This document shows positions 6,326-14,486 of a stretch of DNA of 64,000 nt, piece by piece (position 1 is the first letter of the stretch; each line of letters starts with the position of its first letter). Below the pieces are notes generated by a model that worked only from the letters and a program-made list of their open reading frames with translations, searched no databases and was not told where the DNA came from. Source of the DNA: Candidatus Poribacteria bacterium (GTDB taxonomy: Bacteria; Poribacteria; WGA-4E; WGA-3G). The stretch spans positions 3,280,204 through 3,344,203 of the forward strand of contig OY282386.1 in assembly GCA_958295945.1 (NCBI GenBank), read 5' to 3'. A program made the translations under genes and the position numbers.

Positions 6326-6398
6326 AATTACATAAGGTAAAAATAGTTTCCCTATGTCGAACTGACCGAGATATAATTTGCAAAATGGAGATATTATA

Positions 6399-7682
6399 AT
6401 GGCAACATTAGAAGGCTTCAGAGTGCGAAATTTTGGTGTGCTTAAAGATGTTACGCTTGGTCGCCTATGGGACAGACGGAAAGAAGAAGCACTGACTCCA
6501 ATGACTGCGATTATCGGAAAAAATGGAGTCGGTAAGAGCACATTATTTGATGCTTTCGGTTTCTTATCCGATGCTCTCAACTTTAATAATGTTGAAGAAG
6601 CATGTAATGCACGCGGACGCGGCGGCTTTGACAGAATTCGAACACAAGGGACAACAGACCCTATTGAATTTGATGTGTACTATAGAGAACACTGGAATTC
6701 CAGACCGATTACATACCAAATTGCTATCACAACAGATAAATTTGGATATCCGTATGTACTCCGTGAACGTTTTCGACAAAGACGAAGAGGACAGACGCGT
6801 GGTTGGCCTTTCTCCTTCTTAATTCTTAATAACGGAAGCGGTATAGCATGGAAAGGTGAACAAGTCGGTATACAATTTGTTGAAATTGAAGATCTGGATG
6901 ATTTTGATCTTTTTAAGGCATTGACAGAAGATGAGGAATCTGGACATACAGAGGAAATAGAAATGGATGACCTACGAAGACTTAGTATAACTACACTTGG
7001 TGCTTTGAAGCAGCATCCAAGAATCTCAGCTTTTCGCAGGTTTATTGAAGGGTGGTATCTCAGTTACTTCACCCCGGATGCTGCACGTAGTCTACCAATG
7101 GCAGGACCACAAAAACAACTTAATACACAGGGAGACAATCTTGGAAACGTTGTGCAATACATAAAACGTGAACACCGAGAAAGATTCGAAACTATTTTGA
7201 GAAACATTGCTGACAAAATACCTGGAATAAACCAAATTGATACAGAAGACACTAATGATGGCAGACTACTACTAAAGTTTAACGATAAAGGATTTCAAGA
7301 CCCATTTTATGCTCAACAGATGTCCGACGGGACACTCAAGATATTTGCCTATCTCCTAATGCTTGAAGATCCAAACCCACCGCCATTCCTCTGTATTGAG
7401 GAACCAGAAAATGCCTTGTACCATAAACTTTTAGAAATTCTTGCTACCGAATTTCGAGAACATGCAACGAGGCGTAAAGGCGGATCACAGGTTTTTGTTA
7501 CAACACATCAGCCATACTTAGTTGATGCGTTAGATCCAAAAGAAGTATGGATTCTTGAAAAAGGAGAAGATGGGTTTTCGAAAATTCGGAGAGCAAGTGA
7601 AGATCCTCTTGTAAATAATCTTGTTGAAGAAGGTTTGCCTTTAGGTGGACTCTGGTACAGTGATTATCTGGATCCGAGGTGA
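6399..7682 (+). CDS. AAA family ATPase, SMC/OLD-like (AAA_21 type)
   Basis: This is a 427-residue P-loop ATPase of the ABC/SMC-like clade seen in defence and DNA-repair modules. The Walker A motif GKNGVGKST is at residues 40-48, an ABC-like signature region follows at QQMSDGTLK, and Walker B with two acidic residues (PPFLCIEEPEN) is near 334-335. The H-loop region VFVTTHQPYLVDAL follows. The start ATG has GGAG eight bases upstream; an upstream in-frame TTG is less likely. The next gene begins on the stop codon (TGATG), so the two are translationally coupled. The partner is a Toprim-like DUF4276 protein, a split version of the OLD nuclease or RloA/RloB arrangement. A defence role is inference. 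Confidence 0.85.
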   Translation: MATLEGFRVRNFGVLKDVTLGRLWDRRKEEALTPMTAIIGKNGVGKSTLFDAFGFLSDALNFNNVEEACNARGRGGFDRIRTQGTTDPIEFDVYYREHWNSRPITYQIAITTDKFGYPYVLRERFRQRRRGQTRGWPFSFLILNNGSGIAWKGEQVGIQFVEIEDLDDFDLFKALTEDEESGHTEEIEMDDLRRLSITTLGALKQHPRISAFRRFIEGWYLSYFTPDAARSLPMAGPQKQLNTQGDNLGNVVQYIKREHRERFETILRNIADKIPGINQIDTEDTNDGRLLLKFNDKGFQDPFYAQQMSDGTLKIFAYLLMLEDPNPPPFLCIEEPENALYHKLLEILATEFREHATRRKGGSQVFVTTHQPYLVDALDPKEVWILEKGEDGFSKIRRASEDPLVNNLVEEGLPLGGLWYSDYLDPR

Positions 7683-8335
7683 TGATGCACTTTGAGATAT
7701 TGGTTGAAGATAAATCTGGTGAGAAAATGCTTAATATTTTATTGCCATTGATTATCGGTGAGCAACATACATATCAGATTCATTCGTATAAAGGAATTGG
7801 TCATATACCTAAGAATCTTAAGAGCAGGACAGCTGTAAGTAAACGCATTTTACTTAATCAACTTCCAAGGCTGCTCAGAGGATATGGTAACACATTTTCC
7901 AAATATCCTTTGAACTATCAAGCAGTTGTAGTTGTTATTTGCGATTTGGATAATGAATGTTTAAAATCATTTAGACAAGAACTCTTTAGTGTTCTGGATA
8001 CTTGTAAACCAAAACCAGAGACACGATTCTGTATTGCCGTAGAAGAAGGTGAAGCATGGCTGCTTGGTGATATCACTGCAATTAAGAAGGTGTATCTCAA
8101 TGCTAATGACAAATTTCTGAATGGTTATCAAAATGACGCTATCTGCGGAACATGGGAACTTCTGGCTGATGCAATCTATGTTGGAGGGGCAGAAAAATTG
8201 AAAAACCAACCTTGGAATGTCATCGGTAGGATAAAGTCAGAATGGGCAGAACAGATAACCCCACATTTAGACATAGACAGAAATAAATCACCCAGTTTCT
8301 GTTATTTTCGTGACAAGATTCGTGAACTAATCTGA
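7682..8335 (+). CDS. DUF4276-like putative Toprim nuclease partner
   Basis: This 217-residue protein overlaps the ATPase stop codon by one base. The N-terminus (MMHFEILVEDKSGEKML) carries the early acidic residue expected in Toprim folds. A hydrophobic strand ending in DLDNE (VVVVICDLDNE) supplies a DxD pair, followed by a strand and AVEEGEAWLLGD with further acids. This pattern fits the DUF4276/RloB group that accompanies AAA ATPases in restriction-linked loci. I infer metal-dependent nucleic-acid cleavage controlled by the ATPase. The C-terminal third has aromatic and lysine-rich helices with no motif I recognise. GTG at 7679 and ATG at 7685 are alternative starts. Confidence 0.7.
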   Translation: MMHFEILVEDKSGEKMLNILLPLIIGEQHTYQIHSYKGIGHIPKNLKSRTAVSKRILLNQLPRLLRGYGNTFSKYPLNYQAVVVVICDLDNECLKSFRQELFSVLDTCKPKPETRFCIAVEEGEAWLLGDITAIKKVYLNANDKFLNGYQNDAICGTWELLADAIYVGGAEKLKNQPWNVIGRIKSEWAEQITPHLDIDRNKSPSFCYFRDKIRELI

Positions 8336-9376: not shown

Positions 9377-9895
9377 TCACCGTTTTATAGATTTCTTAAT
9401 TGCTTCTGCTATATTACCTTGATAGCCGCAAGTTGTTGTGTTAATTGTAAAGTTATCGCTTCGAAAAATTATTCTTGATGTTCTTAGTTGGTCATACTGT
9501 GTCTTATCCAATCCATTGTGAACTAAGATAGGTATCAAATCAATCTTGATATTTTTGGGTGTAAAATCATCAACGATTCGAGCTCCTTCTTGCAATTGTG
9601 CCAGAACATCTGAAGCCTTTACATCTCCACTTTTGAGTTCCAGCGGAACACCTACGAGGATATCCTGTATGTCGTCAATGTAAAAAAGCACATAATCACA
9701 TTGATTTGTTGAAGCACTTGCTGGAGGGGAGGCAAGATCAACATCCAAGATTACCCTTTTAGATGGAATGTTTGCCATAGATATTCTGCAACCGCTTTTT
9801 CTATATGATGTTGCTTCCCTATTACCTACATTTTGACGAATCTCCTCAAGAATTTCAATCTGATTCACGACTACCTCAATCTCTTTGCTTCTCAT
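9377..9895 (-). CDS. Putative PD-(D/E)XK nuclease partnered with an ATPase
   Basis: This is a 172-residue protein I cannot assign to a named family. It contains an arrangement typical of PD-(D/E)XK nucleases: an Asp at about residue 67 in a hydrophobic strand (CDYVLFYIDD), then VPLELKSGD with Glu86 and Lys88, and a following helix with Gln (VLAQLQEGARIVDDF). The start at 9895 is the ATG closest to the neighbour's stop; the reading frame stays open upstream to 9946. It overlaps the 3' end of the ATPase gene by 20 bases, so the two are co-expressed. The likely role is the effector nuclease of a two-gene system; this is inference from motif and position. Confidence 0.55.
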   Translation of the reverse strand: MRSKEIEVVVNQIEILEEIRQNVGNREATSYRKSGCRISMANIPSKRVILDVDLASPPASASTNQCDYVLFYIDDIQDILVGVPLELKSGDVKASDVLAQLQEGARIVDDFTPKNIKIDLIPILVHNGLDKTQYDQLRTSRIIFRSDNFTINTTTCGYQGNIAEAIKKSIKR

Positions 9896-11123
9896 ACAAT
9901 TGCTGAAGATTAACGGATCGGTTGTAAAGACCTTCAGCAACGTCATGGTAATCTTTAGGAGGAAATCCCTTCATTGAATCAAATGGTATTTCCTTTACAG
10001 GTAAATCTTTTTGAAAATGCCATATACCGACTTCCTCTTGTAATAACCAACTCCCTGATCCGTCAATTTCTTTATCTATTTGTCCTTCAAGAACCAAATT
10101 CCCAATTTCCTGAAGTAACCAATCACTATGTGTTGTGATAATCACTTTTACTCCTGCCCGAACCAGTCTTGCGAGAATGACAGCCATATCCGCTTGTGCA
10201 CCAGGATGTAAGTGTGCCTCCGGTTCTTCAATGATGAGTGTGTCCCCAGGTTCCACATATCCACGCAGATATAAGACTAATGGAGCAAGTTCAGAAACCA
10301 TTGCTGATGTTCTTGTTATACTTGTTGATTGTCCCGCTTCTTTGGGGTGGAATTTGATTTCAGGGTACCCGTTCTGTGATGATACAATATCTATTACGCC
10401 TCCAAGTATATGCGATTCTAACGCATCAACGATCGCTGTTAATACAGGATTTGGTTTGTTGTTTTCTTGATATAGAGTTAGATACTGCATAAAATCAACA
10501 ACAGCTGCAGAAAGTGTCGGAATATGTATATGTCCACTGTTTTTACGAAGTGTCTTCTCCATAAGAGAACTTGCTACAATACGATGAGTATGTAAGATAC
10601 CATTGCGGGTAGCAGGTAGAAAATACCATTTTGACTGATTTTTATTGTTGGACATGTCATATAACTGTAATCCAGGCGACGATTTATTCGTGGTGATTTT
10701 AGTATCCTGTATTGTGAATGAGAAATATGGGTTTTTCTCATCTGGATAGATAAATCTGATAATAAACTCAAGATAATCTTTCTCATTACCTGCGTATCTG
10801 CATAAATCAAATACAGATGGAACATCATAATATCGTTCAAGAGCAAATTCTATTATTTCTAACTCGTTCAGTTTGGAGTTTAATGTTTCCTTTTGAATGT
10901 ATTCAAAAGCATTCGTAGATTCAGTTGTAGGAAAGCCGTAAGACTCACGAAAAATAGTGTGCATCATATACATCAAGGTGCACATATAAGTTTTCCCAGT
11001 GTTGCTTGGACCGACAAACACAGTCAATGGACGTAAATCAATCTTTGCCTCAGAAATTGGTCCAAAATTTTTGACTTCTATTTCAACCTTTGACTGTTCT
11101 TGTGTGTCTTTGACTTCACTCAT
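9876..11123 (-). CDS. AAA family ATPase, OLD/RecF-like (AAA_15/21)
   Basis: This is a 415-residue ABC/SMC-like ATPase. Motifs in order are Walker A VGPSNTGKTYM near residues 36-46, a signature-like SAMVSELAPLVLYL, Walker B with paired glutamates in GDTLIIEEPEAHLHP, and an H-loop in VKVIITTHSDWLLQEI. The second ATG (11123) is chosen because GAGGAT lies eight bases before it and would abut the first ATG at 11129. The gene begins 23 bases after the GH88 gene and overlaps a small putative nuclease downstream. The ATPase differs strongly from the one at 6.4 kb, so the two modules are not a recent duplication. A defence function is inferred. Confidence 0.82.
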   Translation of the reverse strand: MSEVKDTQEQSKVEIEVKNFGPISEAKIDLRPLTVFVGPSNTGKTYMCTLMYMMHTIFRESYGFPTTESTNAFEYIQKETLNSKLNELEIIEFALERYYDVPSVFDLCRYAGNEKDYLEFIIRFIYPDEKNPYFSFTIQDTKITTNKSSPGLQLYDMSNNKNQSKWYFLPATRNGILHTHRIVASSLMEKTLRKNSGHIHIPTLSAAVVDFMQYLTLYQENNKPNPVLTAIVDALESHILGGVIDIVSSQNGYPEIKFHPKEAGQSTSITRTSAMVSELAPLVLYLRGYVEPGDTLIIEEPEAHLHPGAQADMAVILARLVRAGVKVIITTHSDWLLQEIGNLVLEGQIDKEIDGSGSWLLQEEVGIWHFQKDLPVKEIPFDSMKGFPPKDYHDVAEGLYNRSVNLQQLYEKQRD

Positions 11124-11146
11124 AATCATATCCTCATATTTGTAAG

Positions 11147-13151: not shown

Positions 13152-13212
13152 GTCGGGGCACAGAGACCCCGACCTACAATAGTATGACACGTCGGGGCAC
13201 AGAGACCCCGAC
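13152..13212. repeat. Two copies of a dispersed GTCGGGG hairpin
   Basis: Two units (13152-13173 and 13191-13212) each read GTCGGGG, an 8-base CACAGAGA loop, then CCCCGAC, followed by CTACA. Related units with a changed but still pairing stem (GGCGGG/CCCGCC, and GGGTCTCTGTGACCC in reverse) occur at 54380-54440. They lie between divergent genes and may be transcribed as terminators or act as mobile REP-like hairpins. Confidence 0.75.
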
Positions 13213-13236
13213 CTACAGTGAGATGTTTATACATTA

Positions 13237-13265
13237 TTGCACAATCTCACTGCATTTGCTATAAT
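13237..13265 (+). promoter_or_regulatory. Sigma-70-like promoter for the EF-Tu-like gene
   Basis: TTGCAC (13237-13242), a 17-base spacer and TATAAT (13260-13265) form a good vegetative promoter about 50 bases before the start codon of the EF-Tu-like gene. A strong AAGGAG at 13305-13310 precedes that ATG by six bases. Confidence 0.6.
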
Positions 13266-13316
13266 AATTGATAATGCAAGAAACAATAATTACATTGAGA
13301 AAATAAGGAGAAATAG

Positions 13317-14486
13317 ATGGACGACAAAAGAGGTGCAGCACATCCCTCCCTTCCCATAAGCACACTGGGCGCGTCAGGACATGGTAAAACAACGCTGACA
13401 GCTGCTATTGCAAGAGTCGTTGCGAAAATCGGTTCTATTCTTTCTAAAGTTGACACGCCATTTGAACAACTGATACCAAATCACCATCCTATACGGGAAG
13501 GGGTAAGCATTACCTATCGTTCAATAGATTACGAAACCAGTGGAAAACACTATACACAGATTGACTGCGAAACACACTTGGATATTGTTAAGATGTTAGT
13601 CACTCGTTCATTTACCATTCAGGGAGCAATTTGGGTGGTTAATGCTGTTGATGGTGTTACACAGGAATCCGCAGAACATATACGCATCGCAAACAGATTA
13701 AATATACCTACGGTTGTCTCCTTTCTCAATACACAGAATTCTGCAATTGATGATGAACTTATAGATATTTGCAAACAGGAGATGCGCGAATTACTCACCG
13801 ACAATAACAAGCGGGGATGGGATGAAGAGAACAATCCTATCATCGTTGGTGATGCAAATAAGGCGTTAAAATACAAAGGTGACCGCATAGACTCTGACCA
13901 ATGGAAACCCATTGTTGATTTGATATTTGCCATGAATCGGTGTATGCCAAAACCCATCAATATGGGCAACCTTCCCCCAATTATGCCGATCTATGAGATA
14001 GTTGAGGAGCAGAAAGAACGCGTAACTATAAAGGGTGAACTGGTTCAAGGACACCTTGCTGTTGGTCATGCTGTAGATATTGTTGGGAAAGGTGATAGAA
14101 TCAAGACAAAGTGTCTTAGCATAAAAGAGAATGAAGTCTGTGTTGAGTCTGAACCCGATTGGTTGTCTGTTGGACAGGTGTTATGCCATCCGAAAACAAT
14201 AAAGGCACATTCTGATTTTACTGCTCTTGTGTATCTGCTGACGCAAGAAGAGAGTGGCACCCATATCCCACTGATTGAAAATGACAAACCTGAGATACGT
14301 CTATGGGGTGTTGATATATCAGCGCGACTACATCTTCCCACAAATATATCAATCGTCTCTCCAAGTGAGAATGCTGATGTTTCATTTTCGCTTGAACTGC
14401 CTCTTGCCATGGAAGTAGGCACGACTTTTGAGGTCAAGAAGATGGGGTCTCGGATTGGACTCGGTGTTGTTACGTCGGTAGATTAG
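13317..14486 (+). CDS. Divergent EF-Tu paralogue with degenerate GTPase motifs
   Basis: This 389-residue protein aligns by eye with elongation factor Tu along its whole length. G1 is intact (GASGHGKTT, residues 18-26), switch I is recognisable (EGVSITYRSIDYE), domain II begins near KGELVQGHLAVG and domain III ends GSRIGLGVVTSVD. The G3 motif DCPGH has become DCETH (Gly to Thr86, His87 kept). G4 NKxD has become NTQN (residues 138-141), and G5 SALK is DANK. Guanine specificity should therefore be lost and hydrolysis altered. The gene has its own promoter and a strong ribosome site, so it looks maintained rather than decaying. It may be a pseudo-GTPase binding tRNA, ribosome or an EF-Tu-targeting inhibitor; this is inference. 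Confidence 0.82.
   Translation: MDDKRGAAHPSLPISTLGASGHGKTTLTAAIARVVAKIGSILSKVDTPFEQLIPNHHPIREGVSITYRSIDYETSGKHYTQIDCETHLDIVKMLVTRSFTIQGAIWVVNAVDGVTQESAEHIRIANRLNIPTVVSFLNTQNSAIDDELIDICKQEMRELLTDNNKRGWDEENNPIIVGDANKALKYKGDRIDSDQWKPIVDLIFAMNRCMPKPINMGNLPPIMPIYEIVEEQKERVTIKGELVQGHLAVGHAVDIVGKGDRIKTKCLSIKENEVCVESEPDWLSVGQVLCHPKTIKAHSDFTALVYLLTQEESGTHIPLIENDKPEIRLWGVDISARLHLPTNISIVSPSENADVSFSLELPLAMEVGTTFEVKKMGSRIGLGVVTSVD

Follow-up and report, generated by a model that had tools for sequence, protein, structure and literature searches.

An EF-Tu paralogue encoded by a Candidatus Poribacteria chromosome is best explained as a neofunctionalised, non-cycling pseudo-GTPase whose remodelled domain II/III face would let it act as a binding scaffold or a regulator. 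The family would have been inherited vertically within one order of the Poribacteria, which live in sponges and in the sea, and the reading as a whole is given a probability of roughly 0.55. Few known proteins are as highly conserved as EF-Tu. The paralogue has lost both the switch and the pocket for the tRNA end yet is under strong selection, so that a translation factor of ancient origin seems to have been put to some other use. Order-wide occurrence under such selection, without switch or tRNA pocket, implies that the fold of EF-Tu can be freed from translation elongation, and makes the paralogue a natural test of which EF-Tu parts serve which partner. The features of the gene are located in a 64,000 nt stretch, here called the window (Table 1).

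Table 1. Position of the paralogue gene and its features in the window; residue numbers are those of the window protein unless E. coli numbering is stated
Feature	Position	Strand	Observation
Promoter TTGCAC, 17-base spacer ending TGC, TATAAT (extended -10)	13237..13265	+	Conserved in 8 genus species
Shine-Dalgarno AAGGAG	13305..13310	+	AGGAG conserved in genus
EF-Tu paralogue gene, 389 aa	13317..14486 (stop included)	+	ORF, ATG start
P-loop GASGHGKT, residues 18-25	13368..13391	+	GK kept 61/62, Asp21 (E. coli numbering) mostly replaced
Former switch I, residues 58-66	13488..13514	+	RGIT changed; modelled as confident beta structure
G3 DCETH, residues D83-H87	13563..13577	+	Asp kept 62/62, Gly lost 61/62, His kept 43/62
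G4 NTQN, residues N138-N141	13728..13739	+	Asn kept 61/62, guanine-reading Asp kept only 13/62
Helix D, residues 145-162	13749..13802	+	E147 and E155 (E. coli E144, E152) invariant 62/62
G5 GDA replacing GSA	13848..13856	+	Ser173 (E. coli numbering) to Asp 60/62, Asn 2/62
Domain II, residues 219-296	13971..14204	+	Lowest dN/dS; carries conserved VGKGDRIKT (14082-14108)
Deletion site of canonical loop 268-281 (E. coli numbering)	14150..14151	+	Deleted in 62/62 paralogues
Domain III, residues 297-388	14205..14480	+	New invariant H316, D323, W330, K374, K375 at former T-stem/domain-interface positions

Distribution, selection and expression

The 389 aa protein has the three-domain EF-Tu fold and aligns with EF-Tu end to end, as a preliminary description made from the sequence alone had proposed. 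In profile searches the EF-Tu equivalog TIGR00485 is matched over its full length at 223 bits, below the curated cut-off of 522.4; Pfam GTP_EFTU and GTP_EFTU_D3 are both above cut-off, and the best sequence matches among solved structures are EF-Tu chains. Identity to canonical EF-Tu is about 31-34%. The chromosome, of 5.34 Mb, also carries a normal tuf gene, for which that description had advised a search; it belongs to the str/S10 operon (399 aa, with DCPGH and NKAD).

Orthologues, a search for which had also been proposed as a check, are present in 71 of the 73 genomes of one Poribacteria order, without internal stops in those reported; the two members lacking the paralogue are MAGs of 78-86% completeness. 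An intermediate form, G053, was found in one genome of a neighbouring family of the same class, and the remaining families of the class and phylum have ordinary EF-Tu at most. Patterns specific to this paralogue family, run against 84,980 species genomes, returned 62 loci, every one named Poribacteria. A phage or viral origin was rejected: among the phage records, the matches listed are just 29-32% identical, the level of ordinary EF-Tu, and the viral contigs gave no relative. Frameshifted orthologues were likewise rejected, the four split matches being three in-frame insertions and one orthologue (G048) cut at contig ends.

G053 carries the family marks YETSGK, the YRGNNL..WQP stretch, NDK and FTMKK, and groups with the paralogues in the tree at a support of 100. 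The position of the paralogues among canonical EF-Tu has a support of just 54-56, with long-branch effects possible, and their stem branches are long. G053 no longer has PG in G3 or RGIT in switch I, whereas NKID and GSA are retained, as is a portion of the loop in domain II. This mixture, seen in a single genome, indicates that loss of the GTP switch probably preceded the loss of guanine recognition and of the tRNA pocket; the intermediate makes the sequence of losses directly testable.

Within the genus, dN/dS of the paralogue is 0.07-0.13 overall (domain II 0.00-0.08, mostly up to 0.05; G domain 0.09-0.23; domain III 0.03-0.28), and that of canonical tuf is 0.03-0.04. By these ratios the paralogue is under purifying selection and is no decaying copy. 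The promoter and ribosome site form conserved blocks in the eight species while the rest of the upstream DNA has diverged, which supports expression of the paralogue. Both elements had been taken as strong and as showing expression; their existence and conservation hold up, but the codon usage is not of the high-expression type, with a CAI at the 5th percentile and ribosomal-protein log-odds at the 37th percentile versus the 94th for tuf. Codon bias as a mark of high expression was thus negative. As the genome has little codon bias, low codon adaptation is only a weak sign of modest expression; the codon and partner analyses cover the fetched stretches of the genome. No RNA element was found. 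Directly upstream of the promoter, at 13153-13216, the palindrome TCGGGGCACAGAGACCCCGACCTAC occurs twice, 39 bases apart. It has 17 dispersed copies in the genome (at most 2 mismatches), and among eight aligned upstream regions the pair is present in the window only.

Nucleotide site, tRNA pocket and predicted conformation

Residues were counted in 62 paralogues, with 14 tuf genes of Poribacteria and the E. coli EF-Tu as reference. The changes of DCPGH to DCETH and of NKxD to NTQN, noticed in the preliminary description, are confirmed in the window protein (residues 83-87 and 138-141, respectively). In E. coli numbering, Asp80 of G3 is kept in every paralogue, Gly83 is lost in 61/62 and His84 is kept in 43/62. 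Loss of NKxD holds family-wide for its Lys and Asp, which drift (position 138 is Gly in 26, Asn in 14, Asp in 13 and Glu in 7), but not for Asn135, kept in 61/62. The P-loop had been called intact; its GKT is indeed kept (Gly23-Lys24 in 61/62, Thr25 in 60/62), but Asp21 is lost and is Gly in 50/62. Larger changes had been missed, namely this P-loop Asp, switch-I Thr61, the G5 Ser and a 14-residue deletion in domain II. Thr61, the Mg/gamma-phosphate Thr, is lost in 62/62. The paralogues therefore do not have an intact switch as defined by the P-loop Asp, RGIT, DCPGH and NKxD. The expectation that GTP would not be bound normally points in the right direction, given the lost switch residues, but is incomplete, as GKT, the G3 Asp and the G4 Asn are kept. 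In the most divergent orthologue, G042 (L133 / L146), the P-loop is lost too (VGEKSND) and the frame is still open.

The retained residues could be read as those of a nucleotide-using protein of changed base specificity, in which the P-loop, Asp80 and Asn135 hold the phosphates while the base pocket is adjusted by the loss of Asp138 together with the Asp gained in G5. Near-complete conservation of GKT, Asp80, Asn135 and the Ser-to-Asp change in G5 (60/62) favours this, as does the Asn at position 138 (E. coli numbering) of the window protein, a change reported to shift EF-Tu towards xanthine nucleotides. However, drift at that position speaks against any single new specificity, catalytic His84 and Thr61 are not kept, and G042 has no P-loop; changed specificity is accordingly unlikely. 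Conservation of GKT, Asp80, Asn135 and the new G5 Asp does leave room for a pseudo-enzyme or an altered nucleotide pocket, and the conserved P-loop, D83, N138 and D179 (window numbering) could be an active nucleotide site, which would count against the non-cycling pseudo-GTPase.

The domain II deletion takes Asn273 and Leu277 in all 62 paralogues. Loop 268-281 contributes these two residues to the aminoacyl-tRNA 3'-end pocket of EF-Tu; residues are assigned to tRNA and antibiotic contacts from established knowledge. His66, Phe218, Thr228, Glu259 and Arg288 (E. coli numbering) are replaced, and most T-stem contact positions are changed. Without the 3'-end pocket of EF-Tu, the paralogue, judged by its residues, cannot hold the aminoacyl-tRNA 3' end in the canonical manner. 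The preliminary description had suggested a tRNA carrier. A carrier dedicated to one kind of tRNA, or to a tRNA-like RNA, would draw on the EF-Tu fold and on the conserved basic VGKGDRIKT loop, which could bind RNA, but with pocket and T-stem contacts so altered it is quite improbable.

Nineteen polar residues are fully invariant across the paralogues, 12 of them in domains II/III (T264, E279, W282, K293, Y306, E312, H316, D323, W330, D333, K374 and K375). Several of these replace T-stem or interdomain contacts, which suggests that the domain II/III face has been remade for binding. Helix D of EF-Tu is a docking site for EF-Ts and L7/L12 (PMC5574714, PMC5770553). In the paralogues Leu145 of this helix (E. 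coli numbering) is kept in 57/62 and Leu148 is replaced by Ile or Met. Two glutamates of the helix are invariant, but enrichment of invariant columns in helix D versus the rest of the G domain is not significant (Fisher p 0.39), so that special conservation of the helix as a docking site gains no support from this count.

Structure prediction, another of the proposed checks, gave a confident EF-Tu fold. An AlphaFold2 model built with 17 paralogues in the alignment has a mean pLDDT of 88.9 and a pTM of 0.85, with the switch regions near 89-94 and switch I as beta structure. Its leading PDB matches are EF-Tu at TM 0.85-0.88, GDP-form entries included; the GTP-form entries 1exm, 1eft, 1ttt and 2c77 are absent among the best 50 matches. 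By the same method canonical EF-Tu had both switches below 50 (model quality 76.8) and was nearest to GTP-form structures (TM 0.71-0.77 versus 0.55-0.62 for open forms). Since the control is GTP-like and the paralogue model open, the paralogue is predicted to be locked in an open, GDP-like form. This is support rather than proof, as the canonical model is poorer and its alignment less diverse.

Proposed function and alternatives

A duplicated EF-Tu would have kept its fold and lost GTP/GDP cycling, and would most likely sit permanently in an open, GDP-like arrangement, the retained P-loop perhaps holding phosphate or nucleotide. Its domain II/III face would then act as scaffold or regulator. 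More speculatively, the partner may still lie within translation (EF-Ts, the L7/L12 stalk or the ribosome), a possibility rated well short of an even chance; as helix D is not significantly enriched, a partner in translation stays a suggestion. More tentative again is the broader proposal that, in one order, EF-Tu was converted stepwise, with the intermediate G053 extant, into a pseudo-GTPase that stays open permanently and, via a dedicated partner, regulates translation or some other core process. A second EF-Ts as partner was rejected, there being one tsf only; this sole EF-Ts of the genome is a short frame of 201 aa (L154, G000:C1:4282264-4282752). Gene neighbourhoods compared across the order revealed no common operon partner, and in its own family the paralogue gene stands alone, usually convergent with hisA.

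Many members of the Poribacteria are sponge symbionts, a lifestyle that would suit a surface or host-interaction protein. EF-Tu does moonlight at the surfaces of other bacteria (PMC6822514). However, no signal peptide is apparent by eye, and the divergent members L129, L130 and L133, whose record names suggest open water and not sponges, carry the paralogue, so that it is probably not tied to a host; a surface role is very improbable.

The preliminary description had also raised an EF-Tu decoy for toxins, phage factors or elfamycins. Such a decoy, or an immunity factor that would capture agents directed against EF-Tu, is hardly to be expected either. EF-Tu is a known target, and the candidate defence pair HEC-01 is located about 5 kb upstream in the window. 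Against an elfamycin or thiopeptide sink, the antibiotic-binding residues are not kept: the kirromycin-resistance positions carry G316S/C, A375E and E378K, further changes are R230E/D, R333W and deletion of G275, and pulvomycin and GE2270 positions are altered as well. For toxins and phage factors, most target surfaces would be gone at the observed identity to canonical EF-Tu; dN/dS is low, no defence neighbour is common to the order, the paralogue has no PADLOC match, and codon usage gives no sign of abundance. A slowly decaying, functionless duplicate, to which the long stem branches and the missing P-loop of G042 might point, has a practically negligible probability, and a pseudogene was rejected: in place of the missing orthologues, relaxed selection and stops that the preliminary description had named as counter-evidence, there are 71/73 genomes, no stops, dN/dS of about 0.1 and a conserved promoter.

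Comparison with known systems and neighbouring genes

Canonical EF-Tu (TIGR00485) and the paralogue have in common the three-domain order and fold, the P-loop GKT, the G3 Asp and the G4 Asn; the paralogue is without the switch residues, the guanine-reading Asp, the acceptor-end loop and the elfamycin pocket. The sole distinct bacterial EF-Tu-like subfamily in a 2015 survey is actEF-Tu or EF-Tu3 (tuf3) of the Actinomycetales, described there as a translation factor that is apparently condition-specific and withstands antibiotics directed at EF-Tu (PMC4342817). It too is a second EF-Tu confined to one lineage, but the paralogue is found only in Poribacteria, its switch and tRNA pocket are gone, and it has lost contacts with the translation machinery. 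Archaeal aSelBL likewise arose by duplication of an EF1-family factor; its G domain is disrupted to a variable extent and its function is unknown (PMC4342817). That factor is SelB-derived and archaeal, whereas the paralogue is bacterial, restricted to one phylum and EF-Tu-derived (EF-Tu model 223 bits versus SelB 40 bits). The Poribacteria family is thus neither actEF-Tu nor aSelBL, and a literature search found no report of it. EF-Tu in an open, GDP-type form is a working partner of the hibernation factor Balon in the Balon-EF-Tu(GDP) complex (8rdw; PMC10901736), which the paralogue model matches at TM 0.85; that complex contains ordinary EF-Tu, and the likeness is one of model shape only.

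Two gene pairs are located upstream of the paralogue in the window. At 6378-8329 (+), an AAA_21 ATPase and a DUF4276 protein match PADLOC HEC-01A and HEC-01B (E 1e-187 and 5e-96, respectively) and are a candidate anti-phage defence pair. At 9377-11129 (-), an AAA_15 ATPase (PD-T4-4_A/AriA-like) overlaps a small protein without Pfam or PADLOC match, and this pair recurs in about 20 relatives.
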